This document shows, piece by piece, positions 8,387 to 28,269 of a stretch of 33,938 nucleotides of DNA. Each line of letters opens with the position of its first letter. Position 1 is the first letter of the stretch. Both the position numbers and the translations under genes were made by a program. The DNA is taken from the NCBI GenBank assembly GCA_014728225.1, contig WJLX01000105.1, positions 1-33,938 on the forward strand, given 5' to 3'. Source of the DNA: Candidatus Coatesbacteria bacterium (GTDB lineage: Bacteria; RBG-13-66-14). Under the pieces are notes generated by a model. The model searched no databases. It had not been told where the DNA came from and worked only from the letters and a program-made list of their open reading frames with translations.

Positions 8387-9922
8387 TCATCCAAGCTCGC
8401 GGCCCAGCGTCTCGAGACGGCGGCGGATCTCGTCGCGGGCCCGGTGCAGGCGGGCGACGGCGCCGACGACGCCCTCGACGGTCTCCCGCTCCATGTGGGA
8501 CCACAGCGGCAGGCAGATGACGTCGCGGGCCAGCTCCTCGGTCCGCGTCAAGGGCCCGGCCGACCGGGCGACGCCCTCGAAGCGGCGCTGCAGATGCTGG
8601 GGCGGGGAGAAGTAGCGCTTGACGGCGACGTTGTCGGCGGCCAGGGCGCGGGCCAGCTCATCCCGGGAGAGGCCGAAAGCCCGTTCGTCGACGACGACGG
8701 CGAAGTCTTTGTAGGTGGTGCGGCAATCCGGCGCAAGCTCCTGGAAGGTCAGACCGGGCAGACCGCCCAGGCCGGCCTTGTAGAAGCGGACGAGCTCGTG
8801 GCGCCGGGCCAGGTTGTCCTCGTGGTGCCGCAGAGTCGCCCGGCCGACGGCGGCGTTGAGTTCGCTCAAGCGGCCGTTGAGCCCCCGGCTGGGATCGACC
8901 GCGGAGTCGAGGACGCCCAGGTTGCGCTCCAGGCGGAGGCGCTCGGCGGTTTCACGACGCCGGCAGACCACCAGGCCGCCCTCGGCGGCGGTGACGGGCT
9001 TGGTGGGCGAAAGGCTGAAGACCTCGATGTCGCCCAGGGTGCCGGCGGGACGCTCGCCCAGCCGGGTACCGAAGGCGTGGGCGGCGTCGAGAATCAGGGG
9101 GATGCCGGCCTCGTCGGCGATGCGGCGCAACTCGTCGACGGGGGGCGGGCAGCCGAAGGTGTAGACGGCAGTCAGGGCCCGGGTTTCCGGCCCGACGGCG
9201 GCCTCCGCCGCGGCGGCGTCCAGGGTGAAGTCGCCGGATCTGGCCTCGCAGAAGACCGGGGTCAGCCCGTTCCAGACGGCGGAGAGGCCCGTGGCGAAGT
9301 AGGTGAAGGAGGGCATGACGACCTCGCCCGGTGACTCGACGGTACGCAGGGCCAGGATCAGGCCGGTGGTGCAGTTGGCCAGGGCGACGACCCGCTCGGC
9401 CTCGACCCCCAGGTAGGCGGCCGCCTCGGCCTCGAAGGAGCGCACCTGGGCGTCGTTGGTGATCATCCCGCTCTCGAGGGCCCGTCGCAGATCGGGCTCG
9501 ATCTCCTCGTAGGGCGGCAGGGTCGGCCGGGCGACGGGGACGGGCTCGGTGAAGAAGGGCCGCCCGCCGAGAACGGCCGGACGGTCGTCCCCGAGGCCGA
9601 CGATCAGTTCGTCGAGGGCCAGCAGTTCCACGGGACGCCCGTCCTCCAGCAGCGGCACGAAGCGCACCCCGCGAGTCCGCATCGCCGCCCGCAGTTCGGC
9701 CGGATCATATCCCTCCCGGGCAATCAGAGGCTTGTCGTTGTAAACCGCGCTGACCGGGTCTTCCAGGCTACCGCCGTCGAGCAGGTGGCGGCGCACGTCG
9801 CCGTCGGTCAGGGTACCGACGAGACGCCCGGCGTCGTCGACCACCAGGGCCAAACCGCGACCGCCGGCGTCGATCGCCGCCAGGGCCCGGCTCAGGCTGT
9901 CGTGGCTGTCGACCGTTTCCAT
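8387..9922 (-). CDS. CBS-domain pair fused to a DegT/DnrJ/EryC1/StrS aminotransferase
   Basis: 511 aa in two parts. Residues about 1-110 look like a tandem CBS module: LALVVDDAGRLVGTLTDGDV near 24-43, then a second half with RFVPLLEDGRPVELLALDEL. Residues about 125-505 are a PLP-dependent sugar aminotransferase: an ITNDAQVRSFE start, NCTTGLILAL, ILDAAHAFG (cofactor-binding Asp279) and SLSPTKPVTAAEGG with the Schiff-base Lys308. In nonulosonate pathways such enzymes (LegC/PseC type) transaminate a 4-keto-6-deoxy nucleotide sugar. The CBS module suggests adenine-nucleotide control. Start ATG 9922 has GGAG six bases upstream; the acetyltransferase gene ends 13 bp before. Known legionaminate clusters carry CBS domains on the PtmE-type nucleotidyltransferase, not on the aminotransferase. 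Confidence 0.88.
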   Translation of the reverse strand: METVDSHDSLSRALAAIDAGGRGLALVVDDAGRLVGTLTDGDVRRHLLDGGSLEDPVSAVYNDKPLIAREGYDPAELRAAMRTRGVRFVPLLEDGRPVELLALDELIVGLGDDRPAVLGGRPFFTEPVPVARPTLPPYEEIEPDLRRALESGMITNDAQVRSFEAEAAAYLGVEAERVVALANCTTGLILALRTVESPGEVVMPSFTYFATGLSAVWNGLTPVFCEARSGDFTLDAAAAEAAVGPETRALTAVYTFGCPPPVDELRRIADEAGIPLILDAAHAFGTRLGERPAGTLGDIEVFSLSPTKPVTAAEGGLVVCRRRETAERLRLERNLGVLDSAVDPSRGLNGRLSELNAAVGRATLRHHEDNLARRHELVRFYKAGLGGLPGLTFQELAPDCRTTYKDFAVVVDERAFGLSRDELARALAADNVAVKRYFSPPQHLQRRFEGVARSAGPLTRTEELARDVICLPLWSHMERETVEGVVGAVARLHRARDEIRRRLETLGRELG

Positions 9923-9935
9923 CGCCGCTCCCGTC

Positions 9936-10583
9936 TCAAAAACCGTTCCACTCGCCCTGAACCCGGGCCGGCACGCCGTAGGCGATCACACCGTCCGGGA
10001 CGTCCTCGACGACCACGGCGCCGGAGCCGATCATCGCCTTAGCGCCGACGGCGACGCCGGGGTTGACCGCGGCGTTGGTGCCGATAAAGGTGTAGGCTCC
10101 CACCTTGACTGCGCCGGCCAGCACGGCGCCGGGGTGCAGGTGGGCGTGATCACCGATCTCGCCGTCGTGATCGACCGAACAGCCCGTATTGAGGATCACG
10201 CCGACGCCCAGGCGGGCGCCGGGGTTGACGATCGCCCCGGCGCAGACGACGAGTCCCGCGGAGAGCTTGACGCCGCGGGCGATGACGGCGGAGGGGTGGA
10301 CCAGCGGCGGCAGGTGGTAGCCCAACCCGAGGGCCAGGTTGAAGATCCGTGCCCGGGTGCGATTGTCGCCCACGGCGACCACACAGGCCGTCGCCGCCCG
10401 GGGGTGCCGCTCCAGCAGGGTCGTCGAGCCGATGATCTCGACGCCGTCGAGGTAACCGCCGTGGGTGCGCGAGTCGTCGTCGACGACGGCCACCAGCTCC
10501 AGGTGACCGCTCAGCCGGATCAGGTCGGCGACCACGCGGCCGTGGCCCCCGGCGCCCACCATAACCGTGCGCAGCTCGCTCAT
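9936..10583 (-). CDS. NeuD/LegH-type sugar N- or O-acetyltransferase (left-handed beta-helix)
   Basis: 215 aa. The N-terminal part is a small Rossmann-like domain (VMVGAGGHGRVVADLI, residues 7-22) as in NeuD/PglD. From about residue 95 there is a run of hexapeptide repeats (HPSAVIARGVKLSAG and onward) with SVDHDGEIGDHAHLHPG containing the catalytic-type His. It ends with VVVEDVPDGVIAYGVPA, the usual cap of the acyl-CoA site. It probably acetylates the 4-amino sugar made by the downstream aminotransferase, the LegH/PglD step; O-acetylation of a sialic acid is the alternative. The ATG overlaps the upstream TGA by four bases. Confidence 0.87.
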   Translation of the reverse strand: MSELRTVMVGAGGHGRVVADLIRLSGHLELVAVVDDDSRTHGGYLDGVEIIGSTTLLERHPRAATACVVAVGDNRTRARIFNLALGLGYHLPPLVHPSAVIARGVKLSAGLVVCAGAIVNPGARLGVGVILNTGCSVDHDGEIGDHAHLHPGAVLAGAVKVGAYTFIGTNAAVNPGVAVGAKAMIGSGAVVVEDVPDGVIAYGVPARVQGEWNGF

Positions 10584-11740
10584 CGCTCCACCAGCCTTTT
10601 ACTGAGGAAATCGTCGTCCAATGGGGCGGACAACAGGCTCTCGACCACCCGGGGGGCGGCGCGGCCGTCGCCGTAGGGCGAGGGCTGCGCGGTCAGTTGC
10701 TCGCGCAGTTCGTCGTCGGCGCGGATCCGCGCCAGCGTCGCGCGAACACCGTCCGCCGTCGGCTCGGGGAGATCGTAAACGTTGGCGCCGCGCTCCCGAC
10801 CGTCCTGGCGTCGACCGACGTTGACCACGGGCGTACCGAGCAGGGAGGCCTCGATCAAGCCGGCCGAGGAGTTGCCGACCAGGGCGCCGCAGCCGCGCAG
10901 CAAACCGACGAACTCCCGCGGCGGCAGGTTGGCCGTCAGCGCCCGGCGGTCAGCGGCGGCGGCCCAATCGCGCAGGGCGGCGATCACCGCCCGACCGCCG
11001 GCGTCGGCGTTGGGGTGGAGGGCCAGCACGGGCTCATTCAGCTCGGTCAGGGCCGTCAGGCAGGCCGCCAGTCCGCGCTGCGTCGCCGCCGCCTCGCCGG
11101 GCAGGGGATGGTAGACCAGCAGGTGGAAAGGTCCGTGTAAATCGAGACCCAGCCGCTCCCCGAGCTCGCTCAGCTCGGCCTCGTCCAGGGGCCGCTGGTC
11201 CCGGGCGTGGTCCAGGGCCAGGGAGCCGACGCGGTGAACGCGTTGCGGCTCCTCGCCCCAGGCCAGCAGGCGCTCTTCGGCGGCGACGGTGGCCGGAAAG
11301 AGGAGCTGGGCCAACCGGCTGACGGCGTGGCGCGGTCCGTCGTCGACCCGGGAACGGTCACCGGCCTGGAGCTGGGCCAGGGCCACCCGGCTGTACCAGG
11401 CCGCCGTCGCGGCGCCCAGGACCTCGACCCGATCGCCCAGCACCACCAACCAGTGCGGTCGCTCCGTGCGCCAGAGCTCGGCCAGAGCGCCGCAGACCCT
11501 GCCGGCCAGGTCGGCCATCCCCGTGAGGCTGTCGTCGGCCTCGTCGAGGGGCGCCAGGCGCCGGGGCCGGAAACCGTCGGCCTCGACCAACTCGACGGTC
11601 GAGCCCCGCGAGACGGCCAGATGCCCGGCGGCGGCGTAGACGGCCGGCTCGACGCCGGGCTCGTCCTCCAGCAGCCGCAGCAGGGGGCGCAGCAGGCCGT
11701 AATCCGAACGGCAACCGGTGAGGACGGCGACGCGGAGCAC
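10580..11740 (-). CDS. legG: hydrolysing UDP-sugar 2-epimerase, NeuC/LegG type
   Basis: 386 aa, GT-B-like epimerase. The N-terminus VLTGCRSDYGLLRPLL matches the TG-R-x-DYG signature of NeuC/LegG; LVVLGDRVEVLGAA and the RHAVSRLAQLLF segment follow. The C-terminal part has HPNADAGG and VGNSSAGLIEASLLGTPVVN, the UDP-binding turn. The enzyme would release UDP and epimerise C2, giving the mannose-configured substrate for the synthase. The loop normally read as GGE in NeuC is QAGDRS here, a visible departure near the active site. Start is GTG 11740, three bases after the methyltransferase stop. LegG is preferred to NeuC because an aminotransferase and acetyltransferase are adjacent. Confidence 0.85.
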   Translation of the reverse strand: MLRVAVLTGCRSDYGLLRPLLRLLEDEPGVEPAVYAAAGHLAVSRGSTVELVEADGFRPRRLAPLDEADDSLTGMADLAGRVCGALAELWRTERPHWLVVLGDRVEVLGAATAAWYSRVALAQLQAGDRSRVDDGPRHAVSRLAQLLFPATVAAEERLLAWGEEPQRVHRVGSLALDHARDQRPLDEAELSELGERLGLDLHGPFHLLVYHPLPGEAAATQRGLAACLTALTELNEPVLALHPNADAGGRAVIAALRDWAAAADRRALTANLPPREFVGLLRGCGALVGNSSAGLIEASLLGTPVVNVGRRQDGRERGANVYDLPEPTADGVRATLARIRADDELREQLTAQPSPYGDGRAAPRVVESLLSAPLDDDFLSKRLVER

Positions 11741-11743
11741 GGC

Positions 11744-12568
11744 TCAGCGGGTGAACAGGACGCCGGACAGGTGCCGGGTGACGGTGTAGGCGCCCTCGCG
11801 GCCGATGGTGTCCTCGGCGACGTGGTAGAGGGTGTCCATCAGGTCGTCCCGGGCGGCCAGATCGGCCTCGAGTTCCCGGTACAGCCGGCTGGAGGCGAAG
11901 TACTCCACCAGGTCCACCGGCCGGGGGAAGCGCAGGACATTGGTGAAGTCGCTGCGCTCGCCGGCTCCGAAGGCTGACTCGAGGACGGGCAGAACCTGGG
12001 TGGTCAGGTCCCGGCCCAGGGCCTGCTCCTTGATCTGCGGCGCGCAGTCGATGATCTCATCGTAGAAGCGTCGGAAGGAGGCCTGATCGTCCGGGGCGCC
12101 CCCGACGACGAAGAGCCGCCCTCCCGCCTTGAGCAGCCGGTGCAGCTCGTCGACGGAGCGCTCCAGGTCGGGGATGAACTGCAGGGTGAAGACGGCGACG
12201 GCGAGGTCGAAGGCGCCGTCGCGCCAGGGCAGGGTGTCCGAGGGCTCCAGGGTCTTGAACTCGACGGGCAGCTCGGCGACGCCCTCGAGGATCTCCCAGG
12301 CCTTCTCGTACTGGGGCTCGAAATCCACCGCCGCCAGGCTGCCGCCCCGGGCCAGGGCCCGGGCCAAGGGCAGGGAGAGGTTGCCCACGCCGCAGCCGTA
12401 TTCGAGGACCGCTTCATCGTCCTGCGGCGCCAGGCTCTCCAGCAGCCAGCCGGCCAGGTCGGCGTTGCCGAAGCGGACGTGCACATCGACGGCCGAGCGC
12501 CGCCGTACGGCCTCGGCGGGTAACGGCTCCGGCGCGGTATCGAACTCCTCGTAGTCGCTGGTCACCAC
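11744..12568 (-). CDS. class I SAM-dependent methyltransferase
   Basis: 274 aa. SAM-binding motif I is VLEYGCGVGN (54-63), followed by LAAVDFEPQYEKA (acidic end of strand 2), the AFDLAVAVFTLQFIPD segment and LLKAGGRLFVVGGAP, the classic order of a class I methyltransferase. The C-terminal third is probably the substrate lid. Start GTG 12568 has GGAGG seven bases upstream and overlaps the synthase stop by seven bases; an in-frame GTG at 12565 would give a GTGA overlap. Placed inside the nonulosonate genes, it may methylate the sugar or an intermediate, but nothing in the sequence identifies the acceptor. Confidence 0.8.
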   Translation of the reverse strand: MVTSDYEEFDTAPEPLPAEAVRRRSAVDVHVRFGNADLAGWLLESLAPQDDEAVLEYGCGVGNLSLPLARALARGGSLAAVDFEPQYEKAWEILEGVAELPVEFKTLEPSDTLPWRDGAFDLAVAVFTLQFIPDLERSVDELHRLLKAGGRLFVVGGAPDDQASFRRFYDEIIDCAPQIKEQALGRDLTTQVLPVLESAFGAGERSDFTNVLRFPRPVDLVEYFASSRLYRELEADLAARDDLMDTLYHVAEDTIGREGAYTVTRHLSGVLFTR

Positions 12569-13629
12569 TGCAAGCCCTCCGTGGGTTCGTCGATTGTGTC
12601 TCGTGTCAACGGTCGTCCGGCGGCCAGATCGCGGTTCAGTTTGCAGCCGTAGAGCGCGTCCAGGTTACGCGGGTCCAGCCCCCGTAGCGGTCGACGGGCG
12701 ATCAAGTCGCCCGGTTCCAAGGCGTGCCCGGCGGCCAGATCCCGGGCCACCCGCAGACCCTTGCGCGCCGCGGCGCGGGCGTCGTCCTCGGCCGGACGGT
12801 GGGCCTTGGTCCGCCCGCCCAACTGAAGCTCGGCCCGGCGCAGCCGCCGAACCAGCTCGGCCAGCTCGGCGGGTTCGGCGCTGGCCCGCTGATCCGGACC
12901 CGCCGCCTCGCGGTCCAGGGTAAAGTGTTTCTCGATCAGCACCGCCCCCAGGGCCGCGGCCAGCAGCGCCGCCTGGAAGCCCCGGCTGTGGTCCGAATAG
13001 CCCACGGGAACGCCGTAGCGCTCGCGCAGCGCCGACAGGGCGCGCAGGTGCAGCTCGGCGTCGGGAGCCGGGTAGGCGCTGGTGCAGTGCAGCAGCACCA
13101 GGGGCGCCTCCCAGAGGCGTTCGACGGCCCAGTCGATGTCCCGGGGCCCGGCCATCCCCGTCGAGACGACGAGGGGCAGCCCGGCGGCCCGGGCGGCGTC
13201 GAGGACGAAGGGATCGGTCAGCTCACCGGAGCCCAGCTTGAGCGCGTCGACGCCCAGCTCGACCAGCAGCTCGACCTGGGCGGCGCCGAAGGCCGAGGCC
13301 AGGAAGTCGATACCGACCGCGGCGCAGTAATCCCGCAGCCCGGCCAGCGCGTCGCGGTCGAGGGTCAAGCGTTCCAGCATCCGGCGCTGGTCGGACAACC
13401 CGGCGGCCGCGCTCTGGTAGGCGGCCGTCGGGGCGTCGTCGTCCACCAGTTCGGCGGGGTCGAAGGCCTGGAACTTGACGGCGTCGGCCCCGGCCTCCCG
13501 GGCCGCGTCGATCAAGCGCCGGGCCGCGATCGGATCGCCGTTATGGTTGACGCCGATCTCGGCCACCACGTAGACCGGCTCACCTACGGCCAGACGGCGA
13601 CCGCTAAGCTGGACCGGGCTGGCGCTCAA
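12562..13629 (-). CDS. legI: N-acetylneuraminate/legionaminate synthase (NeuB/LegI/SpsE family)
   Basis: 355 aa: a TIM barrel (about 1-280) plus a C-terminal SAF/antifreeze-like domain (about 290-350). Diagnostic motifs are AEIGVNHNGD (23-32), KFQ (52-54), LLHCTSAYPAP, GYSDH with metal-ligand His214, and IEKHFTLDR with His235. These positions match the metal-binding histidines known from meningococcal NeuB. It condenses phosphoenolpyruvate with a 2,4-diacetamido-6-deoxy (or N-acetyl) mannose-type sugar to form a nonulosonic acid. The common GPDH motif reads GPDQ here, a position that also varies in other NeuB proteins. Start is TTG 13629 with AGAGG six bases upstream; no ATG lies nearby. Confidence 0.92.
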   Translation of the reverse strand: MSASPVQLSGRRLAVGEPVYVVAEIGVNHNGDPIAARRLIDAAREAGADAVKFQAFDPAELVDDDAPTAAYQSAAAGLSDQRRMLERLTLDRDALAGLRDYCAAVGIDFLASAFGAAQVELLVELGVDALKLGSGELTDPFVLDAARAAGLPLVVSTGMAGPRDIDWAVERLWEAPLVLLHCTSAYPAPDAELHLRALSALRERYGVPVGYSDHSRGFQAALLAAALGAVLIEKHFTLDREAAGPDQRASAEPAELAELVRRLRRAELQLGGRTKAHRPAEDDARAAARKGLRVARDLAAGHALEPGDLIARRPLRGLDPRNLDALYGCKLNRDLAAGRPLTRDTIDEPTEGLQW

Positions 13630-13658
13630 GGCTGACCTCTCGGCGATCCGCAGGGAGT

Positions 13659-13688
13659 CTAATAAGAGAAACTTAACTCATCGGGCAA
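13659..13688 (-). promoter_or_regulatory. possible internal promoter before the nonulosonate synthase gene
   Basis: The 90-bp gap between the CMP-sugar synthetase and synthase genes is clearly A+T-rich compared with its surroundings. On the minus strand it contains TTGCCC, an 18-base spacer, and TATTAG, placing transcription start about 20 bases before the TTG start codon. The hexamers are imperfect, so this is tentative. Confidence 0.25.
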
Positions 13689-13719
13689 CAGATTGCAACT
13701 ACAGCGATTGTCCGGCGGC

Positions 13720-14409
13720 TCAGGCGCGGCCGCGGCGATAGATCAGGGCGGCCTCGGCCACGGCCAGGTCCCAGTCGTCGTCGACGTCGACGGACTCCCA
13801 GGGCTCCATCACGTAGGCGGCGACGGCCTCGCCCAGCAACCGGTCGGCGGCCAGCAGCTGCGGCGTGGTCAGGTAGAGGGCGCCGTTGGGCCGGTAGAGG
13901 GGCGGCAGCTCCTGGCGCCGCCGCGGCCGCTCCCGCTCCAGGGGTACGGCCAGGCCGTCCTCGACCCGCCAAGCCCAGGCGGGGTGGCTCTCCACCGGGG
14001 CCAGGGAGAGCAGGGAATCGCAAGCGACGGCGGCGAACAGCTCCAGGGCCTCGTCGAGATGCCGCCCCGTGCGCAACGGCGAGGTGGGCTGGAGCACGAC
14101 GACGACCTCGGGCCGATAGCCCTCCTCGGCGGAGAGCCGGGCCAGGGCGTGCTGGACCACGGGCAGGGTCGGCGTCGCGTCGTCGGCCAGCTCCGCCGGT
14201 CGGCGGAAGGGCGTCTCCAGGCCCAGCTTGGCGCCCAGGCGGGCTATCCGGTCGTCGTCGGTGGACAACACGGCGCGCAGCGGGGCGCGGCAATCGTTCA
14301 CGCAGTCGGCGGTGTAGGCCAGCAGCGGCCGTCCACCCAGCTCGGCCAGGTTCTTGTGCGGCAGCCCCCTCGAGCCGCCGCGGGCCGGAATGAGGGCCAG
14401 GACCTCCAC
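13720..14409 (-). CDS. legF: CMP-nonulosonate (CMP-NeuAc/Leg) synthetase, NeuA/LegF type
   Basis: 229 aa, close to the usual size of single-domain CMP-sialate synthetases. The N-terminus ALIPARGGSRGLPHKN (5-20) is the nucleotide-binding P-loop-like signature; VVVLQPTSPLRTG follows the typical strand-4 motif, and PNGALYLTT and WESVDVDDDWDLAVAE complete the active site with its metal-binding aspartates. It activates the product of the neighbouring synthase with CTP for transfer to the glycan. Start GTG 14409 lies two bases after the dehydrogenase stop. The choice of LegF over NeuA rests on the neighbouring amino-sugar genes. Confidence 0.9.
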   Translation of the reverse strand: MEVLALIPARGGSRGLPHKNLAELGGRPLLAYTADCVNDCRAPLRAVLSTDDDRIARLGAKLGLETPFRRPAELADDATPTLPVVQHALARLSAEEGYRPEVVVVLQPTSPLRTGRHLDEALELFAAVACDSLLSLAPVESHPAWAWRVEDGLAVPLERERPRRRQELPPLYRPNGALYLTTPQLLAADRLLGEAVAAYVMEPWESVDVDDDWDLAVAEAALIYRRGRA

Positions 14410-14411
14410 CC

Positions 14412-15737
<1,326 letters not shown>

Positions 15738-15857: not shown

Positions 15858-16334
15858 CTATGAACTCAACGGCCCCAGCTTGAGCCGCATCAACCGGCTG
15901 AAGAACCAGCCTCGCAGGGCGGCCAGGGGCAGACGTCCGCGCAGGCGCAGGTAAACACGGTTGAGCAGCCAGGCGAGCTGAGCCCGACCCGGCCGGGCCG
16001 GCAGGCTCTGCAACCGTCCCCGATGACGCAGCAGCCGTACCCGGCCGATCAGGGGTCCGGTGCGCTCGACGATGATCCGGGCGTCGGGGTTGGCCCACCA
16101 GCCGTCGGCGTCGCGCCGGCAGAGGCGATGGACCGCCAGCTCACCGCTCCGCAGGTAGGCCGCCAGCTCGCCGACTCGGGGCGGACGCTCGCCGAAGGGC
16201 TCCAGCAGCACCTCGGCGCCCCGGGGGATCTGCCGACCCATGCAGCAGCCCCGGGTGCCCAGCCAGCGCGATCCTCCCTGCATCAGGCCCTCGACCAGGA
16301 GACCCGGAATATCTGGTTGTTCCAACGCGCGCAT
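15858..16334 (-). CDS. S24/S26 (signal-peptidase-I-like) protein with Cys at the Ser position
   Basis: 158 aa from ATG 16334, four bases after the peptide gene's TAG, so probably coupled. The frame is open further upstream, but that part overlaps the peptide. The pattern resembles the small S26-like proteins found with PqqD-type clusters: a hydrophobic/glycine lead, then RGCCMGRQIPRGAEVLLEP (28-46), RVGELAAYLRSGELAVHRL, then GPLIGRVRLL. In active relatives the first motif reads G-x-S-M, with Ser as nucleophile; here it reads G-C-C-M, so Cys31 stands where Ser is expected. The usual GD before the A-N segment is also lost. It could be a Cys-type or inactive peptidase; a leader-cleaving role is an inference from context. 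Confidence 0.6.
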   Translation of the reverse strand: MRALEQPDIPGLLVEGLMQGGSRWLGTRGCCMGRQIPRGAEVLLEPFGERPPRVGELAAYLRSGELAVHRLCRRDADGWWANPDARIIVERTGPLIGRVRLLRHRGRLQSLPARPGRAQLAWLLNRVYLRLRGRLPLAALRGWFFSRLMRLKLGPLSS

Positions 16335-16338
16335 AACG

Positions 16339-16539
16339 CTACGAGGTGCCCCCGAATGCCGGAGGCAGACACCAATCAGGGGGGCCGGCAAGATAGTAAG
16401 GACCACAAATGCCCGGCCAGAGCTTAATACAGGTCAGGTTATCACTTTCGGTGGGATCAAAGGTGCAATCGATCAGCACTGCTTGATCGAAGACCTGCTT
16501 GCTCGCCAACTCCGGTTTGCGGTAGGGTTGCTTCGACAT
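16339..16539 (-). CDS. 66-aa Cys-rich peptide, candidate RiPP precursor
   Basis: A short gene starting at ATG 16539 with a strong AGGAG ribosome-binding site that overlaps the end of the radical SAM gene 11 bp upstream. Residues 1-23 look like a leader: YRKPEL at 6-11 fits the Y-x-x-P-x-L motif that PqqD-like recognition domains bind in lasso-type and other RiPP leaders, followed by an amphipathic stretch. The core-like remainder has cysteines at 25, 37, 45 and 57 (steps of 12, 8 and 12), several Pro/Gly and a GGTS end. There is no signal peptide or membrane segment. With the neighbouring PqqD-like and SPASM radical SAM genes it is a credible modified-peptide precursor. I know no named family that matches it. 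Confidence 0.75.
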   Translation of the reverse strand: MSKQPYRKPELASKQVFDQAVLIDCTFDPTESDNLTCIKLWPGICGPYYLAGPPDWCLPPAFGGTS

Positions 16540-16550
16540 CTGCTACTCCT

Positions 16551-17615
16551 TTAACTGTCGGCTCTCGCAGACAATATTTGATGCAACTGAAGATTTTTCT
16601 TCGCCTGTGAGCAAACGGTGGGGGATGGTTTCCAGGCACTACCGGTCTCTAGAAAAGCTATCCCTGAACAGCGGCTGCACTGGATGGCAAACCGGCAATC
16701 CCGACAAGTTGGGTGAACTAATTTTGCAATGCCCCTCCAATACATCAGCCTGGACGAGTGTTGCCAAATACGAGCCACCGACTGGAACGCCGCCTTGCCC
16801 AAAACAAGAGGAGTTTGAATACAGGGCGAGATATCCCCATTGGGACTAACAGCAAATGTACTCAATCCTGCGTTACAAGGTACCGCCCGCCGAACGGGTT
16901 CGAGCGCGTGTGCTCTTGTTTCTGCTCCGCGAGGGACCGCTCGTTGTCCTTCCACCCAGGCTGTTTCGTCAACACTAAGGTAACAATCGGCCACGGGCTG
17001 CTCGCCCCTGTTAGTGGGCGTTATGTATCCCGTAGACACATAGGTGCCGCCGAGGTTGTGGGCTAATCGTTCCAGTCGATTATGCTGACGGTAGTTCTCT
17101 TTCAACAGGGAGGTCTTGATTTTGACGAAGAGGCCCGCCTCGCGGAACAGCCTAAGTGATCGAATGATACGCTCGAAACTACCCGGCACTCCACTGAAGG
17201 CATCCTGGGTTCGCGCATCCGCTCCATGGAGTGATACCTCGATAAAACGCACATTGGCCTGAACTAACCGCTCGACCTTTTCCTCATTATAATCGTAGGC
17301 ATTGGTAAATAACCGGATGAAAAAGCCGTCGTTGCCGAGTTCCTCCAACAGCTCCCAGAAAGCGGGGTACAGCGTCGGCTCGCCGCCGGTCAGCAGCAGG
17401 TTCACATCTCCAAGCTCGGCGGCCTCGCGAAAGATAGTCGTCCATTGAGCCGGGGACATCTCTTGCGCCCGGGAGCTGTTTCGATCAATGTAACAGTGTT
17501 TGCAGTTCAACTGGCAACGATAAGTCAGTTCGCAACTAATACTTAGGGGAATATTGCTTCTGCTCAGCGCTCTGCGAAAAGTGAAAAAATCCGCTCTTAG
17601 GTCGTCCGTGTTCAA
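16551..17615 (-). CDS. radical SAM peptide-modifying enzyme with SPASM domain
   Basis: 354 aa from TTG 17615, which overlaps the PqqD-like gene's TGA as TTGA and has GGAGG seven bases upstream; the longer open frame is non-native sequence. The radical SAM cluster is C-x3-C-x2-C at Cys34, 38 and 41, with GGEP at 77-80. The C-terminal SPASM-type cysteines are 247, 265, 304, 307, 313, 316 and 335 (C-R-D-C, then Q-C-S-R-C), expected to hold auxiliary [4Fe-4S] clusters. Such enzymes install thioether, C-C or epimerised residues in peptides. Base composition is far below its neighbours: two 60-base blocks counted (17281-17340, 17521-17580) are 26/60 G+C, against 42/60 just upstream. This points to separate acquisition. 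Confidence 0.9.
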   Translation of the reverse strand: MNTDDLRADFFTFRRALSRSNIPLSISCELTYRCQLNCKHCYIDRNSSRAQEMSPAQWTTIFREAAELGDVNLLLTGGEPTLYPAFWELLEELGNDGFFIRLFTNAYDYNEEKVERLVQANVRFIEVSLHGADARTQDAFSGVPGSFERIIRSLRLFREAGLFVKIKTSLLKENYRQHNRLERLAHNLGGTYVSTGYITPTNRGEQPVADCYLSVDETAWVEGQRAVPRGAETRAHALEPVRRAVPCNAGLSTFAVSPNGDISPCIQTPLVLGKAAFQSVARIWQHSSRLMYWRGIAKLVHPTCRDCRFAIQCSRCSGIAFLETGSAWKPSPTVCSQAKKNLQLHQILSARADS

Positions 17616-17896
17616 CGTACGACCTCCAGCACCTGGCGGCGGACGAGCTGCTCGACCAGTTCGCTCAGGTCGGCCTCCAGCACCGCGCGGTCGACGTCGT
17701 ACTCCTCGAGCAGGCTGTCGATGATCCCGCTCCACTCGCGCTCGCCGTCGCAGAGTTCCCAAAAGCGGGCCCCGACAGCCTGCAGGTTGTGCAGGTTGCC
17801 GTCGAAGGGCGTGATGATGAAGACCTCGTCTTCGACCCGGCGCCAGGGGATGTCCTGATGGCGGCGGGGAATGTCGTCGTCGAGCGGGCGGTTCAT
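17612..17896 (-). CDS. PqqD-family peptide-recognition protein
   Basis: 94 aa, the usual PqqD size. The family pattern is clear: a short beta start (VFIITPFDGNLHNLQAVG), then ARFWELCDGEREWSGIID (43-60), then a helical end (VLEADLSELVEQLVRRQVLE). PqqD-like domains are RiPP recognition elements that bind a precursor's leader and present it to the radical SAM partner. Start ATG 17896 has AAGGAG ten bases upstream; the frame is open further upstream, but that is sequence of the next gene. It lies 17 bp after the nucleotidyltransferase-like gene and is coupled to the radical SAM gene. Its G+C is typical of the operon, unlike that gene's. Confidence 0.88.
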   Translation of the reverse strand: MNRPLDDDIPRRHQDIPWRRVEDEVFIITPFDGNLHNLQAVGARFWELCDGEREWSGIIDSLLEEYDVDRAVLEADLSELVEQLVRRQVLEVVR

Positions 17897-17913
17897 CGGC
17901 GGTGTACTCCTTT

Positions 17914-18918
17914 TCAGTGACGCTCTCCCGCCCGGCGGACCAGGGGCCACAGCAGGCGGCTCAGGCCGTAGGTCAGGGCGCGGGCCGGACTCTGGCAGAG
18001 CAACAGGCCGAGCAGCCGGGCGCGGAGCTGCAGGCCGCCGGTGGACTTCAGCAACCGGAACCGGTAATCGTCGGCGGGCAGGATCGCCCCCGGGGGCAGC
18101 CGTCGGCGCAGGGCCGGGAAGCGGCGCAGGTAGGCCAGAGCAAAGTCGTAGAGCCGTTCCAGGCCGCAGCGGCGGGCGTTGCCCTTGACGGTCGCCCAGT
18201 CCACCAGGGGAGCCAGCCGGTGGAGGTCGAGGACCCAGAGCAGGTGGCGTTCGAAGAGGTGCTCCTTGGCCAGATGGGCCAGGGCGAACAGGGCGGCGTC
18301 CTCGAGACGGGGCACGTAGACGCGTCCGCTCTCCAGCTCCAGGGGCCGGCGATTGGCCCACAACTCATCGTAGCCGCGGTAGCGACCCGGCGGCACCAGA
18401 TCGAAGTGGACCTCGAGGCTGCGATCGTCCTTCTGCCAGCTCAGGTGGACCCAGGTGCGGTAGAGCCGTCGGGCGTAGGCGCCGTGTTCGCGGGTCAGCC
18501 AGCCGCCGCGCGCCAGCCGGCGCCGCAGCTCGTCGTACAACCGCCGGGGGCAGAAGAGGTCGATGTCGACGGAGGACCGGGCCCCCGGAGGATAGAGCAG
18601 CCGGGCGAAGTGGACGCCCTTGAGCACCACGGGCTGCAGTTCGCCGGCCAGGCGGGTCAGCTCGACGGTCAGGCCCTCGTTGATCAATTGGCGCCGCAGA
18701 ACCTCGAGCCGGGCCCGGCGCAGCTCGGCGGCGTAATCGGCGGGTAGTTCGTCCAGCAGGCCCGCCGTCTCCAACTCGGCGCAGACCGCGGCGCTGAGGC
18801 GCTCCAGAGCCAGCCGTCGGCGCAACTCCGGCTCATCGGCCAGTCGACGGGCCAACGCCGAAGTCGACCCCGAGACCAGTTCCAACAGCGCTACTTCTTG
18901 CCCAGGAAGCGCTGCCAC
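17914..18918 (-). CDS. uncharacterised nucleotidyltransferase-like protein (NTP_transf_5 type)
   Basis: 334 aa. The core signature is VVLKGVHFARLLYPPG then SVDIDLF (DID at 118-120), the G-x-D-x-D-type metal site of nucleotidyltransferase-fold proteins, followed by LEVHFDLVPPGR. This matches the family often found beside PqqD-like and S26-like proteins in exopolysaccharide and RiPP-type clusters; its reaction is not established. The rest is helical and Arg-rich. The start is uncertain: GTG 18918 overlaps the Wzc gene by 28 bp and has no clear ribosome-binding site; TTG 18885, just after the Wzc stop, is an alternative. Its place between wzc and the PqqD-like gene ties the peptide block to the capsule operon. 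Confidence 0.75.
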   Translation of the reverse strand: MAALPGQEVALLELVSGSTSALARRLADEPELRRRLALERLSAAVCAELETAGLLDELPADYAAELRRARLEVLRRQLINEGLTVELTRLAGELQPVVLKGVHFARLLYPPGARSSVDIDLFCPRRLYDELRRRLARGGWLTREHGAYARRLYRTWVHLSWQKDDRSLEVHFDLVPPGRYRGYDELWANRRPLELESGRVYVPRLEDAALFALAHLAKEHLFERHLLWVLDLHRLAPLVDWATVKGNARRCGLERLYDFALAYLRRFPALRRRLPPGAILPADDYRFRLLKSTGGLQLRARLLGLLLCQSPARALTYGLSRLLWPLVRRAGERH

Positions 18919-21287
18919 AGGGAGCGTTTCTGCGACGAATCGACCTCGCCGCGGTGGTAGTAATAGTAGTAGTAACGGTGCGACTTGTAGGTCCGGGTCA
19001 GGTCCACCTTGTTGAGGACGAAGCCCAGGATGTTGGCCCGCGCCTTGCGCAGGTGCGCCACGGCCTCGCGGGCGGCGTCGGCTTCGGTGCTCTCGCTCTG
19101 CAGCACCAGGATCGCCCCGTCGGCCAGGGTGCTCAGGATCGCCGGATCGGTAACCGCCAGCACCGGCGAGGTGTCCATCACGATACGGTCGAACCGCTGA
19201 CGCAGGCGCTCCACCAGGCGCCGGCAGCGCTTGCTGGCCAGCAGCTCCGAGGGGTTGGGCGGCAGGTGGCCGGCCGGCAGCAGGTAGAGGTCATCGATCC
19301 CCGTGGGACGGATGCACTCGTCGTCCTCGCGATCGCCCAGGATCAGCTCGGTGATCCCCGGCGTGGTGGGCACGCTGAAGTACTTCTGCAGCTCGGCCTT
19401 GCGCAGGTCGGTGTCGACCAGCAGCGTGGAGAGTCCCTGCTGGGCGAAGGAGAGGCCCAGGTTGGACGACAGGGTGGTTTTTCCGTCGCCCTTGCTGGGG
19501 CTGGTGACCGTAATCAGCTCCAGTTTACGGTCGACGCTGAAGTACTGGAGGTTGGTGCGCAGGATACGGTAGGACTCGGCCACCGGCGAACGGGGATGAC
19601 TCAGCAGCAGCGGCTTGTAGGGCTCGGGGGGGCGCTCGCTGTCGGCGATCTTGGGGATGACCCCCACCGAGCGAATCCCCAGCAGCTGGCTGGTCTCTTC
19701 GGCGGTCTTGAGGGTGGTGTCGTTGAGCTCGATGATCACGGCCAGCCCGACGCCGACGACGATGCCGATCAGCAGGCCGATCAGGATATCGCTGGTGTGA
19801 TTGGGGCTCACCGGGGCCCGGGGTACGAGAGCCTGGTCCAGAATGCGGGCGTCGCCGGTCTCCATGCTCTCGTTGATCCGCGCTTCCTCGTAGCGCTCCA
19901 ACAGCATGGTGTGGATCTTGTTGGCCACGTCGGCCCGGCGCTGACGCAGGGCCAGCTCCATCTCCTGCTTGGGCAGCTCGCCGATCCGGGCGCTCAGCGC
20001 GGCAATCTCCTCGTCGATCCCGCCCAGTTGAGCCTCCAGGCGTTCGATCTCCCCGGAGATGTAGCCACGGCGCCGCGACTGGCGCAGCTGTTCGCGCAAG
20101 TCCTCGGCTGCGGCGGTCAGCTGGCCGTCGATGGCCTGCAGACGCGGATTCAACGGACCGGTCTGCTCCTCGAGCTGCTGTCTCTCGACGAGCAAGCGGC
20201 CGATCTCCCCGGCGTAGGCCTGCAGCACCGGATCGGAATGAATGCCCTGCCAGGTCGTCAGCGTCGTCAAGCCCTCGACACCGAGCTCGCCCGTGGTCGT
20301 CAACTCCTCGATGGCGTCCTGAACGGCGTAGAGAGCGCTGAGGTCGGTGGCGATCTGATAACGCCGGGCCTCGGTGTTGGAGAGACGCTGGGTGGTTTGG
20401 GCGGCCTCGTTGGTGAAGGTGACCAGGCCGGTCTCCTCCTTATACCGGCGCAGCATATCCTCGGTGTTGCGCAGCTTGAGCTCGGCCACCTCGATCTGCT
20501 CGCCGATGAATTCCCGGGCTCGGCGGGCCCGCGACTGCTTCCAGCGCAGGTTTTCCTCGACGTAGACCTCGGCGACGGCGTTGGCCAGCTCGGCGGCGCC
20601 CTGGGGATCGGTGCGCCGCACACTGATGATGATCGTGTTGCCCTCCTTGGCCTTGCGCACGATGGTGCTCTGGCGGATGCCCTCGGCCAGGGTGGCGGGA
20701 TCGGAGGTGCGGATGGTGATGGTTTTGTCCGGGCTCGGCGAGGGATCCTCGAGGGTGAAGCCCATCAGGCCGTCGTCGGTGACGAAGGGTTCGGAGTAGG
20801 TACCCCGGCCGACGCTCTCTCCCGTGGCGGAACTCAGAAGCTCGTAGGAGTCGGTATCCTCGACGAGCTGATACTCGCCGGGGGGGAAGCCCTGTTCGAC
20901 CCAGGGGGAGATGAAGCTGGCGCCCTGGGGACCGTCCGCGCTGGCCTCGAAGGCCAGGTTGAGTTTATCGACCACCCCCAGGGAGGTGCTGCGGCTGGAG
21001 ATGATCTGGATCTCCGTCTCCAGCCGGTAGGGGTAGTAGTTGGAGTAGTAGCCGCCGATGAAGTTCTCCTGGCCCTGGGTTTCCAGCACCAGGGAACAGG
21101 CGGCGACGTAGGTCGGCGCCGTCGAGAAGGTGCGGTAGGCGCTGAAGGCGGTGATGGAGACTACGGCGAAAATGATGATCCACTTACGCTTGCGCAGGAT
21201 CAACAGGTAATCGGCCAACCGCGGTCCCTCGGAACTGGGGGGCCTTCCAGCGGTCTGTTCCTGCTGTTGGAAGTCTTCGGTCGCCAT
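18891..21287 (-). CDS. wzc: Wzc-type chain-length regulator with BY-kinase domain
   Basis: 798 aa inner-membrane protein. Wzz-type N-terminus with a first membrane helix at about 34-52, a long periplasmic region rich in helical coiled-coil (about 240-470) and a second helix at about 501-521. The cytoplasmic tyrosine kinase follows: Walker A SPSKGDGKTT (596-605), Walker A' LLVDTD (622-627), Walker B IVMDTSP (702-708) and a C-terminal six-tyrosine run (772-777), the autophosphorylation cluster. Such proteins set chain length and drive Wzy-dependent export with Wza. The ATG is one base after the wza stop. All BY-kinase landmarks are intact, so it should be active; a phosphatase partner is not in the window. 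Confidence 0.95.
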   Translation of the reverse strand: MATEDFQQQEQTAGRPPSSEGPRLADYLLILRKRKWIIIFAVVSITAFSAYRTFSTAPTYVAACSLVLETQGQENFIGGYYSNYYPYRLETEIQIISSRSTSLGVVDKLNLAFEASADGPQGASFISPWVEQGFPPGEYQLVEDTDSYELLSSATGESVGRGTYSEPFVTDDGLMGFTLEDPSPSPDKTITIRTSDPATLAEGIRQSTIVRKAKEGNTIIISVRRTDPQGAAELANAVAEVYVEENLRWKQSRARRAREFIGEQIEVAELKLRNTEDMLRRYKEETGLVTFTNEAAQTTQRLSNTEARRYQIATDLSALYAVQDAIEELTTTGELGVEGLTTLTTWQGIHSDPVLQAYAGEIGRLLVERQQLEEQTGPLNPRLQAIDGQLTAAAEDLREQLRQSRRRGYISGEIERLEAQLGGIDEEIAALSARIGELPKQEMELALRQRRADVANKIHTMLLERYEEARINESMETGDARILDQALVPRAPVSPNHTSDILIGLLIGIVVGVGLAVIIELNDTTLKTAEETSQLLGIRSVGVIPKIADSERPPEPYKPLLLSHPRSPVAESYRILRTNLQYFSVDRKLELITVTSPSKGDGKTTLSSNLGLSFAQQGLSTLLVDTDLRKAELQKYFSVPTTPGITELILGDREDDECIRPTGIDDLYLLPAGHLPPNPSELLASKRCRRLVERLRQRFDRIVMDTSPVLAVTDPAILSTLADGAILVLQSESTEADAAREAVAHLRKARANILGFVLNKVDLTRTYKSHRYYYYYYHRGEVDSSQKRSLWQRFLGKK

Positions 21288-21288
21288 G

Positions 21289-22026
21289 TCACCAGTTGAG
21301 GTAGTAGAGCCGGTTGAGATTGATCACCGAGGCAATGGTGGGGCTGAGACTGCCGAGGAAGGCGTTCCAGTCGCCGATGAAGGAGCGCGAAACGTAGACG
21401 ATGTCGCCGGAGCCCAGAGGGATGTCCCAGTTCGCCCCGCCGCCTTCCAGGATATCATCGACATTCACCAGATAGAGCTTGGTCGCCTCCGGCAACACCC
21501 GGACCACGGCCACCTCGCTGGCGACGGCGTGCTCGTTGAGGCCTCCGGCCTGGGACAGGGCCTCGATGAGGGAGATCCCGACCCGGTAGCCGTAGCGGCC
21601 GGGCTTGGCGACCTCGCCGAGGATGTAGACCCGACAGCTATTGTACTCCAGCACCTGGAGTCCGAGCTGCAACCGACCGAGGTAGGGCCGCCAGCCATCG
21701 GCTAGGGCTTCGCGTAACTGCCGCACGGTCAAACCGGCGGCGCGGAAGTCCTCCAACAGGGGCAGGTTGAGGTAGCCCTCGGGATCGACGAAATAGGCTC
21801 CGGACAACTCGGGGTGCTCGAGAACGGTGATGTTGATCTTGTCGTCGGGTCCCACGCGGTAGCTGGTCTCGGCCAGAAAGGCGGCGTCGACCACCGGGGC
21901 CTCGATGATCTCGACGGTACGCCCGGCCAGGGGATCCTCCACCGGCGCCTCCGCGGCAGCGCCGAGCGTCGCCGGCGCCGTGAGCGCCAGCGTCCATGCC
22001 GGGATCAAAACCGTGGTCAGCCTCAT
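21289..22026 (-). CDS. wza: Wza-type polysaccharide export protein (Poly_export/SLBB)
   Basis: 245 aa from ATG 22026 (GGTGA just upstream; a TTG at 22029 is less likely). Signal peptide in the first roughly 23 residues, without a lipobox cysteine. Poly_export domain from YRVGPDDKINITVLEHPEL to about residue 120, then one SLBB domain starting at VYILGEVAKPGRYGYRVG. At 245 aa it is much shorter than E. coli Wza (379 aa) and lacks the long C-terminal part with the outer-membrane helix, so it may form only the periplasmic section of the export channel. First gene of the operon; downstream of a sigma-54-like and a sigma-70-like promoter. Confidence 0.92.
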   Translation of the reverse strand: MRLTTVLIPAWTLALTAPATLGAAAEAPVEDPLAGRTVEIIEAPVVDAAFLAETSYRVGPDDKINITVLEHPELSGAYFVDPEGYLNLPLLEDFRAAGLTVRQLREALADGWRPYLGRLQLGLQVLEYNSCRVYILGEVAKPGRYGYRVGISLIEALSQAGGLNEHAVASEVAVVRVLPEATKLYLVNVDDILEGGGANWDIPLGSGDIVYVSRSFIGDWNAFLGSLSPTIASVINLNRLYYLNW

Positions 22027-22104
22027 CAAATCACCATCAGCTCGTAACGTTTAGTGGTGCAAACTACGGGTTCCGCATGGCGCGGAGCCCCTGTGGCATA
22101 GCGG

Positions 22105-26384: not shown

Positions 26385-27311
26385 TCAGCGGTAGTGGAGC
26401 AGGTGGGTTTCGGCGGCGGCCCAGCCTTCGTCAGTCTCGATGAAGATCAGGTCTTGCAGGTTCTCGGCGGCGGGGTGCTCGCTCTCGCTCAACCCGCCGG
26501 CGGCGTCGACGCGGGCCAGGTAAGCGCCGGGCCCGCAGATCCAGCAGCCCCCGCCCGCCGGATCGGCGGCCACGCCGAAGAGGGTCCGTTCCGTATCGAC
26601 CACGGCTTCGGCCCCGGCGGCGTCGAAGCGGTAGACCACGCCGTCGGCGGCGACGAGCCAGCCCGCGCCATCCGCCGTCAGGGTGCAATCCTCGAGACGG
26701 TCCCCGCCGGTGGAATGGTAGCTGGAGTCATCGCCCTCGATCAGCAGGGCGGTTCCCGTTCCGGCGGCGTCGGCGCCGACGACGAGGAGCGTCCCGTCGT
26801 CGCCGACATCGACGGAGCGCCAGAGGTAGTCCGCCGGAACGGTCAGGCGCTCCCAGACGTCGGCGACCAGCCGCCAGACCTGGCCGGCGGAGCCGACGGC
26901 GCAGGCCGTGTCGTCGGCGTTGACGGCGACCTCGTTGAGGTAGGCGCAATCCGCCGGGGTAACCTCGCTCCAGCCCGCACCGGGAGCGTAGTCGTAGAGG
27001 CGGCCCGCGTCGCCGACGTGGCCGCAGGCCCAGGCTCCGCCGTCGGAGCGGACGGCGACCCCGGTCAGTTCGGCGCTCGAGGGACCGTCGAGTTCGCTCC
27101 ACGAGCCGCCCGCACGGCGCCAGAACTCACCGCCCAGGCCGACGACGCAGACCACGTCCCCGGCGGCGTCGAGATCGCGCAGCCCCGCCGCCGGGCCGCC
27201 GGGAAGCTCGACGGCCACCCAGTAGGGATCGAGCTCGACATCGCCGTCGCAACCCGCCGCCAGCAGCGCCGTCAGAACCGCCGCCAGACTGATAAGCATC
27301 GCTTTCTTCAT
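26385..27311 (-). CDS. lipoprotein, beta-propeller-like, paralogue of the upstream gene
   Basis: 308 aa from ATG 27311, chosen because GGAGG lies seven bases upstream and a lipoprotein signal follows at once: MKK, a hydrophobic stretch, then LLAAGC with lipid-modified Cys21. The mature part consists of short repeated blocks with W-x-(V/L) and G-x-x-G turns (LTGVAVRSDGGAWACG, VGSAGQVWRL, LFGVAADPAGGGCWICG), as in YCF48/photosystem-stability-type or other propeller proteins. It is visibly related to the next lipoprotein: both start the mature chain with a VELPG motif and end with a D-L segment and a HLL tail. Probably outer-membrane-anchored; function unknown. Confidence 0.75.
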   Translation of the reverse strand: MKKAMLISLAAVLTALLAAGCDGDVELDPYWVAVELPGGPAAGLRDLDAAGDVVCVVGLGGEFWRRAGGSWSELDGPSSAELTGVAVRSDGGAWACGHVGDAGRLYDYAPGAGWSEVTPADCAYLNEVAVNADDTACAVGSAGQVWRLVADVWERLTVPADYLWRSVDVGDDGTLLVVGADAAGTGTALLIEGDDSSYHSTGGDRLEDCTLTADGAGWLVAADGVVYRFDAAGAEAVVDTERTLFGVAADPAGGGCWICGPGAYLARVDAAGGLSESEHPAAENLQDLIFIETDEGWAAAETHLLHYR

Positions 27312-27333
27312 CGGGGCGCCTCCCCGTCCCGGG

Positions 27334-28269
27334 TTAGAAGAAACCCAGCAGGTGATCGTCGGTGACCAGCCAGCGCGGGCGTCCCGCCTCGTCGCAGAAC
27401 AGATCCCGCACATGGCCGTCGACGGGCAGCAGCTCCGGAGTCGCCCCGTCGCGGTCGACCCGGCTCAGCTCGCCGTAGGCTCCGCAAACCCAGCAATTGT
27501 CGCGCCCGACGGCGCAGACACCGTAGAGGGGATTGGCGGAGCGGTAGAGCGTCGCCAGATCGCCTCCGACCTCGTCGAAGAAATGCAGGTTGTGGTCACG
27601 ATCGACGAGCCAGGCCCCGTCACCGAGCAGCGCCCCGGCCGCCACGCCGTAGTCGCCGAGGGGGTACTTGGTTCCCTCGAGATCCTCCTCGAGGATCAGG
27701 AAGCGACCGTCGTCGGCTTCATCGTCGCCGACGGCCAGGATCCGTTCTCCGGACAGATCGACGCCGCGCCAGCAGTCCCGCAGGTCGGTGTAGACCAGGC
27801 GCCAGTCCGCACCGGGTTCTCTGAGCCAGATGTGGCCGTACCAGCCCACGGCGGCCGACCGGCCCTCGGCGTCGGCCTCGACGGCGGTCAACCATAACAC
27901 GCGCCCGGGCAGCTCGACGACGCTCCAGCCCGTTGACGGATCGTACTCCCAGAGGGCACCCAGGTACTGACCGTCGGAAAGTGTTGCCGCGGCGCAACCG
28001 CCGGGCAGGGCGGCGATGTCCGTCAACACCCAGCCGTCCTCGACGGCCAGCCCGCGCGGCAGCCAGTCGCCGCCGTCGGAGTACCACACCCGACCGTCCG
28101 CGGCGGCCGCCCAGACCCCGCTGTTATCGGCGGCGTCCACGGCGCACAGCTCGCCGCCCGCGGCACCGGGGAGCTCGACGATCCGCCAGGCCGGGTCGTC
28201 GCCCAGCCCGTCGCAGGCCGTCAACAGAACCGGAGCCAACAAGACGCAGAACCTCGTCAGACGGCGCAT
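27334..28269 (-). CDS. lipoprotein, beta-propeller-like
   Basis: 311 aa. Signal peptide MRRLTRF, a hydrophobic stretch and LLTAC with lipid-modified Cys19; GGGAGG five bases before the ATG. The mature chain repeats short strands with W/G turns (GVWAAAADGRVWYSDGG, AVGWYGHIWLREPG, LYGVCAVGRDNCWVCGAYG). The shared VELPG start, the CW-(I/V)-CG block and similar ends show that this gene and the downstream lipoprotein arose by tandem duplication. It follows prs by 13 bp and precedes its paralogue by 22 bp. Such propeller lipoproteins often serve binding or assembly roles in the envelope, but no specific function is indicated. Confidence 0.75.
   Translation of the reverse strand: MRRLTRFCVLLAPVLLTACDGLGDDPAWRIVELPGAAGGELCAVDAADNSGVWAAAADGRVWYSDGGDWLPRGLAVEDGWVLTDIAALPGGCAAATLSDGQYLGALWEYDPSTGWSVVELPGRVLWLTAVEADAEGRSAAVGWYGHIWLREPGADWRLVYTDLRDCWRGVDLSGERILAVGDDEADDGRFLILEEDLEGTKYPLGDYGVAAGALLGDGAWLVDRDHNLHFFDEVGGDLATLYRSANPLYGVCAVGRDNCWVCGAYGELSRVDRDGATPELLPVDGHVRDLFCDEAGRPRWLVTDDHLLGFF

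Follow-up and report, generated by a model that had tools for sequence, protein, structure and literature searches.

This report concerns a block of five minus-strand genes in a 33,938-nt stretch of DNA (the window), which is contig C105 of a Candidatus Coatesbacteria assembly (2.96 Mb in 181 contigs). Judging from its sequence, the block very probably makes a small Cys-containing peptide, modifies it with a radical enzyme and cuts it free. The open reading frame (ORF) listing of the window places it between wzc and ugd, and its products are a nucleotidyltransferase (NT), a PqqD-type recognition element (RRE) for ribosomally synthesised and post-translationally modified peptides (RiPPs), a radical SAM/SPASM enzyme (rSAM), a precursor peptide and a protein with the predicted fold of S26 peptidases (Table 1). 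On balance, we favour the reading that this is a RiPP pathway built into a capsule operon, in which the rSAM would be guided by the RRE, the leader cut off by the S26-like protein and the C-terminal Ser modified by the NT. A preliminary description of this DNA had already reported five tightly coupled genes on one strand between wzc and the sugar genes. All of these ORFs are present, with gaps from -28 to +17 nt (wzc/NT -28, NT/PqqD +17, PqqD/rSAM -4, rSAM/peptide +11, peptide/S26-like +4), followed by 120 nt between the S26-like gene and ugd. The identities proposed there as nucleotidyltransferase-like, PqqD-like and radical SAM/SPASM were confirmed by Pfam matches, and that of the 66-aa Cys-rich peptide by its ORF and conservation. 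An AAGGAG ribosome-binding site precedes the peptide ORF.

The block was compared across 14 genomes of the phylum (8 genera, five families), seven of which, including the window genome, belong to the family of the window; drawn from only five families and mostly draft assemblies, these do not amount to 14 independent observations. A search for the five-gene order next to wzc recovered wzc-NT-PqqD-rSAM-peptide-S26 in all seven family genomes, the six others of which span three other genera, and this recurrence argues that the block is more than a chance arrangement. The next gene is ugd in each of them except G002, where the contig stops after the S26-like gene. Protein identity between the family cassettes is about 33-56%, and a small ORF with the same type of leader occupies its place in every one. 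In a quick tree of the rSAM the seven family sequences group together (99), their placement relative to the rest of the phylum not being settled by that tree. With a profile built from 17 precursors, a peptide was found beside PqqD-rSAM in 14/14 phylum genomes, and nothing matched away from such loci. Homologous operons without a Y-x-x-P peptide had been named beforehand as the observation that would speak against the proposal; none turned up, and the peptide is present in each of the homologous cassettes of the phylum.

In the seven genomes of the four other families, PqqD-rSAM is accompanied by one or two peptides of this kind. No S26 gene is found in their peptide cassettes, and an HprK-like kinase adjoins the cassette wherever the contig covers that stretch. 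The kinase gene is immediately preceded by one for a secreted protein of beta-propeller-like type, with a weak DUF6923 match (L040:6281-7156, L041:7156-7983, L042:2305-3126, L044:7660-8496, L045:12210-13040), and a different propeller-like family occurs downstream of wzc-NT in family f3 (L148, L149, L151).

The leader of the window precursor carries the motif Y6-x-x-P9-x-L11-x-S13-x-x-V16-F17, and its general form, Y-x-x-P-x-[ILMV]-x-S-x-x-[IV]-F, is present in 17/17 precursors. Among 19,873 six-frame ORFs of the loci this motif had 17 matches, all of them precursors (one locus is present twice). G004 and G005, the two closest family members, differ in their first 24 codons by 10 synonymous and 0 nonsynonymous changes, giving a nonsynonymous divergence (dN) of 0 in the leader, and the core has a dN of 0.44 and a synonymous divergence (dS) of 0.61. 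Such a conserved leader joined to a fast-changing core is the signature of a RiPP precursor. Within the core, four Cys are conserved in all seven family members, one of which has five, and four or more Cys occur in 16 of the 17 precursors; six residues separate the leader Phe from the first Cys in most of them. The C-terminal residue is Ser throughout the family (7/7) and Ser or Thr throughout the phylum (17/17). In a control set, none of 13 precursors with the same YxxP expression from two-rSAM cassettes (SynChlorMet (SCM)-like, CxxG-type) ends in Ser or Thr; three others, from L051, L062 and L098, do.

The peptide has no Pfam or NCBIfam match, as would be expected if the small ORF were spurious and the radical SAM/PqqD pair acted on something else. 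That explanation is contradicted by the conservation across genomes, including the unchanged leader, the motif in every precursor and the peptide in every phylum genome, as well as by the ribosome-binding site, and we regard it as extremely improbable. The general definition of a RiPP fits the cassette, which has a gene-encoded precursor, a conserved leader, a variable core and modifying enzymes alongside, and on these sequence features the peptide is a new RiPP precursor family.

Profile searches against PDB sequences place the PqqD-type RRE closest to the lasso RRE TbiB1 (1.8e-13) and to PqqD-family and lasso PqqD-family chaperones (9x8z, 9x90), and the rSAM closest to SkfB (1.1e-35), then PqqE and CteB. 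The CxxxCxxC motif of the rSAM (C34, C38, C41) is invariant in the seven family members, and so are seven further Cys in its C-terminal part (247, 265, 304, 307, 313, 316 and 335), as expected of a SPASM domain with two auxiliary clusters. The RRE would bind the leader at Y-x-x-P-x-[LIM] and hand the core to the rSAM. The earlier proposal of a RiPP-type cassette in a capsule operon, with a leader read by a PqqD-type RRE and a radical SAM maturase, thus finds support in the conserved leader motif, the TbiB1-like RRE and the family synteny, and a RiPP with a leader-guided radical SAM step is highly probable.

What the rSAM does to the core is less certain. SkfB and CteB form thioethers between Cys and other residues, and the window enzyme, as a SPASM protein related in sequence to such maturases, resembles those of sactipeptides and ranthipeptides. 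It may join core Cys to neighbouring residues by thioethers in the same fashion, and we would give thioether chemistry in the core about an even chance. Alternatively, the product could be linear, with the rSAM adding some non-thioether modification (e.g., a C-C bond or epimerisation) and the Cys forming disulfides or acting as metal ligands. PqqE, the second-best solved relative of the rSAM, does form a C-C bond. Moreover, the closest gene set overlaps that of the linear polyphosphorylated peptides (LPP) reported from Bacillota, whose intermediate is linear (Popov et al. 2026, PMC13381572). Nevertheless, a linear product seems rather unlikely given that the thioether maturase SkfB is the best solved relative, that CteB also ranks high and that nothing in the core is as constant as its four Cys at conserved positions. 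Membership of named pathways was rejected on profile scores: pyrroloquinoline quinone biosynthesis (PqqD 30 bits against a cut-off of 46, PqqE 119 against 381), GeoRSP (TIGR04302/TIGR04303; 40 of 100 bits for PqqD and 84 of 400 for the rSAM) and SCM (NCBIfam scores far under the cut-offs). In genome G000 (C140:8788-9918; loci L002 and L050), one 531-aa open frame combines a second PqqD domain with a radical SAM domain; long-frame radical SAM homologues (506-614 aa) in G001, G003, G004 and G006 are perhaps the same PqqD-rSAM fusion.

The S26-like protein has no Pfam or NCBIfam match and no sequence match to a peptidase family, and a profile search against PDB sequences returned nothing useful. 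Its AlphaFold2 model (pLDDT 78.7, from an alignment of five sequences) matches LexA/UmuD/lambda repressor, SEC11 (SPC-A/C) and SipA in Foldseek (best E=6e-3, prob 1.00), and the S26 assignment, which the preliminary description had based on motifs, draws its support only from this predicted fold and the alignment. All seven members have Cys31 in place of the catalytic Ser found in all ten homologues aligned from elsewhere, so the protein would be a Cys-type variant. In place of Ser-Met the members have this Cys and then Met, His or Leu, while His-Arg is retained and the KGD motif is altered; His69, Asp84 and Glu90 are invariant, the latter two standing at acid positions. The label of S26-peptidase-like given in the preliminary description therefore holds for the modelled SPase/LexA fold and fails for the Ser nucleophile.

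An Ala three residues past the motif Phe is present in 7/7 members having the S26-like gene and is not fixed in members without it. Our best guess is a Cys-type leader peptidase that cuts after this Ala: the RRE would present the leader to the S26-fold protein, as happens with LppS in LPP, and cleavage would follow the Ala of [IV]F-x-x-A. We think it quite probable that the leader is removed by this protein; if so, the Ser-to-Cys change implies a leader peptidase that works as a cysteine enzyme with an S26 fold. The missing Ser, the altered KGD motif and the lack of a sequence match to any peptidase family could also mean that the protein is a scaffold or inactive subunit and that a housekeeping protease removes the leader. 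This is unlikely in our judgement, because the change is specifically from Ser to Cys in every member, the three residues named above are invariant and the Ala site is fixed only in genomes carrying the gene. Transpeptidation of the core onto the capsule by a Cys-type S26 protein was rejected, since the leader, not the core, would stay on the enzyme and nothing lies past the C-terminal Ser. S26 homologues at L047 and L051 exceed the cut-off for archaeal-type signal peptidases, a type to which the LPP enzyme also belongs.

The NT scores 116 bits against the PF14907 profile (curated cut-off 31), and its K100-G101 and D118-x-D120 are invariant in six family members. A profile search against PDB sequences gave nothing useful, and the AlphaFold2 model (pLDDT 80.5) matches the MenT1/MenT3 and ANT(2'')-Ia nucleotidyltransferases in the PDB. 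At L033:8225-9041 the G004 NT gene is broken over two frames, and the G005 copy has unknown residues; both are probably assembly errors. Exactly one PF14907 gene occurs per phylum genome, linked to wzc in 14/14 (adjacent in 13, with one sugar-epimerase gene between in the other). Outside the family (seven genomes) it lies apart from the peptide genes, directly after wzc in six. PF14907-type genes elsewhere occur in several settings: Antarctobacter has one next to lasso and exopolysaccharide genes, Vibrio one next to an HprK-related kinase gene and Azospirillum one within a polysaccharide locus, and in Deinococcus there is a fusion with a lasso B2 domain. At L076:9823-11877 (Candidatus Aminicenantes), S26-like and NTP_transf_5 domains share one long frame, which hints at joint action.

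The C-terminal Ser of pseudomycoidin is modified by the kinase PsmK and the nucleotidyltransferase (NTase) PsmN, the latter adding hexoses to the phosphorylated residue (review PMC9266682). From this precedent, the wzc linkage and the lasso, HprK and polysaccharide contexts of PF14907, we infer that the NT may modify the peptide's C-terminal Ser and so bridge peptide and capsule. It would decorate the invariant Ser with a nucleotide or (phospho)sugar, tying the product to the capsule of the surrounding genes. By analogy, action of the NT on this Ser is a possibility that we place slightly short of evens. The PqqD, rSAM, peptide and S26 genes might instead be a complete RiPP pathway and the NT a neighbouring capsule enzyme, acting for example on a sugar or lipid carrier; other families keep the NT at wzc while their PqqD-rSAM-peptide genes lie elsewhere, and the Azospirillum gene has no RiPP gene annotated nearby. 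This seems doubtful to us, as PF14907-type enzymes are found inside lasso and HprK clusters (the Deinococcus B2 fusion, Antarctobacter, Vibrio) and in the radical SAM/HprK/S26 cluster L051, PsmN modifies a RiPP (PMC9266682), and every phylum genome having the NT also has the peptide.

Several points weigh against the pathway as we have drawn it. The Ser on which PsmN acts already carries a phosphate, yet the cassette has no kinase; a PF07475 search of the window genome for one gave one true HprK and weak P-loop matches, and the same search matches 10/14 control genomes. In LPP, LppK phosphorylates a Ser near the core start, not at the C-terminus (PMC13381572). At two NT-bearing loci outside the phylum, L073 and L076, the precursors end in residues other than Ser. 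The classical Ser and Lys are missing from the S26-like protein, which leaves its peptidase activity unproven, and the fold matches come from shallow alignments (5-6 sequences) with modest Foldseek E-values. Finally, the five-gene block has no exporter gene dedicated to the peptide. The preliminary description had suggested that the peptide might be attached to the polysaccharide or exported along with it; a physical link of the peptide to the capsule is improbable in our estimation. Lower still we rate the most specific proposal, in which the modified peptide, its leader freed by a Cys-type S26 protein, would be joined via its C-terminal Ser by the wzc-linked NT to a nucleotide-activated sugar or the capsule as a phylum-wide part of the envelope.

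RiPPs are usually patchy in distribution and often antimicrobial. Since all 14 genomes carry the peptide and keep the NT linked to the capsule export gene wzc, the product may serve the cell surface in some enduring way, and this pattern points to a structural or housekeeping role. What LPP and paeninodin peptides do in capsule loci has yet to be settled (PMC13381572), and with the window system the question can be put to a second, independent lineage. The uncharacterised NTP_transf_5 family also gains a substrate hypothesis, namely the C-terminal Ser of a radical-SAM-modified peptide.

The surroundings of the block, with wza, wzc, ugd, NeuB, several glycosyltransferases and an O-antigen ligase, show that it belongs to a capsule-type operon, which includes sugar genes of nonulosonic-acid type (CMP-transferase, NeuB, methyltransferase, UDP-GlcNAc 2-epimerase, PglD-type, DegT aminotransferase). 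Third-position GC is 0.57 in the rSAM gene and 0.64 in the peptide gene, against 0.83-0.91 in their neighbours (window 16339-17615); the same trend is seen in most relatives and could mean module exchange or different constraints. Upstream of wza, two paralogous lipoprotein-like genes, 31% identical and with a weak Tectonin match, stand side by side (window 26385-28269).

Table 1. Features of the five-gene block and its neighbours, in window coordinates.
Feature	Position	Strand	Basis
NTP_transf_5 (PF14907) nucleotidyltransferase (NT), 334 aa	17914..18918	-	Pfam E=2.1e-33
PqqD-type discrete RRE, 94 aa	17612..17896	-	PF05402 E=4.8e-15
Radical SAM/SPASM enzyme (rSAM), 354 aa, TTG start	16551..17615	-	PF04055 1.7e-27 + SPASM 1.9e-8
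Precursor peptide MSKQPYRKPELASKQVFDQAVLIDCTFDPTESDNLTCIKLWPGICGPYYLAGPPDWCLPPAFGGTS, 66 aa, 4 Cys	16339..16539	-	Orthologues across phylum beside PqqD-rSAM
Predicted leader, residues 1-20	16480..16539	-	RRE motif; putative cut after Ala20
Predicted core, residues 21-66, four Cys, C-terminal Ser	16342..16479	-	Family conservation
S26/S24-fold protein, 158 aa, no membrane anchor apparent	15858..16334	-	Predicted fold + alignment
wzc-like polysaccharide co-polymerase/tyrosine autokinase	18891..21287	-	Wzz, GNVR, AAA_31, Tyr-rich tail
wza-like polysaccharide export protein	21289..22029	-	Poly_export + SLBB
UDP-sugar 6-dehydrogenase (ugd)	14412..15737	-	PF03721/PF00984/PF03720
Nonulosonic-acid-type sugar genes	8387..14409	-	Pfam

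By gene content and motifs, the closest known systems are LPP and the lasso peptides paeninodin and pseudomycoidin, whose genes are often located in capsule loci. Common to LPP and the window cassette are a discrete RRE, a YxxP leader motif, a short precursor whose leader is fixed and whose core varies, a leader peptidase of (here modelled) signal-peptidase fold, location in capsular polysaccharide loci and an NTP transferase in the cluster (PF14907 in the window). In LPP, an RRE-dependent SipW-like peptidase removes the YxxP leader with a cut after F-E-T (PMC13381572). However, the window motif YxxPx[ILMV]xSxx[IV]F departs from the LPP leader consensus YxxPxVLxHQxIxFETxxS, and the LPP peptidase is of the Ser/His/Asp type whereas the window protein would be Cys-type. 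The HprK-like kinase and MsbA-like exporter of LPP are both absent from the window block, which has a radical SAM/SPASM enzyme and a four-Cys core; the LPP paper mentions no radical SAM enzyme (PMC13381572). With paeninodin and pseudomycoidin the cassette shares [Y/W]xxP-type leader recognition by an RRE, a precursor with C-terminal Ser (PMC9266682), an NTase in the cluster (PsmN) and, in phylum relatives, an HprK-like kinase, but it has an rSAM and lacks their macrolactam synthetase C and B2 transglutaminase-like peptidase. A lasso peptide was rejected, there being no Asn synthase-like macrolactam synthetase or B2 peptidase in the block or the neighbouring genes scanned.

Among the rSAM thioether peptides, sactipeptides include SkfA/SkfB and ruminococcin C, and ranthipeptides include CteA/CteB. 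The window cassette has in common with these a SPASM enzyme nearest SkfB and CteB and a Cys-containing core, and differs in its separate PqqD-type RRE reading YxxP, its NTase, its S26-fold protein and its capsule context. GeoRSP and SCM also combine PqqD with radical SAM/SPASM, but their cassettes carry two radical SAM enzymes and that of the window one; the SCM-like cassettes examined have YxxP Cys-containing precursors, often with HprK/ScmC, S26 and NTP_transf_5. At L051:7897-14285, a polysaccharide locus is followed by PqqD-rSAM-rSAM-peptide-HprK-methyltransferase-S26-NT, and L073:249-8067 (Anaerolineales) reads PqqD-rSAM-rSAM-peptide-ScmC/HprK-S26-ABC transporter-NT; in both of these cassettes from other phyla the signal peptidase is archaeal-type and the peptides are YxxP with Cys. 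In these layouts the RRE/kinase/signal-peptidase/NTase module of LPP and lasso pathways also pairs with rSAM enzymes, and the window block is one such combination, pared back to five genes and with a fixed place in a capsule operon.

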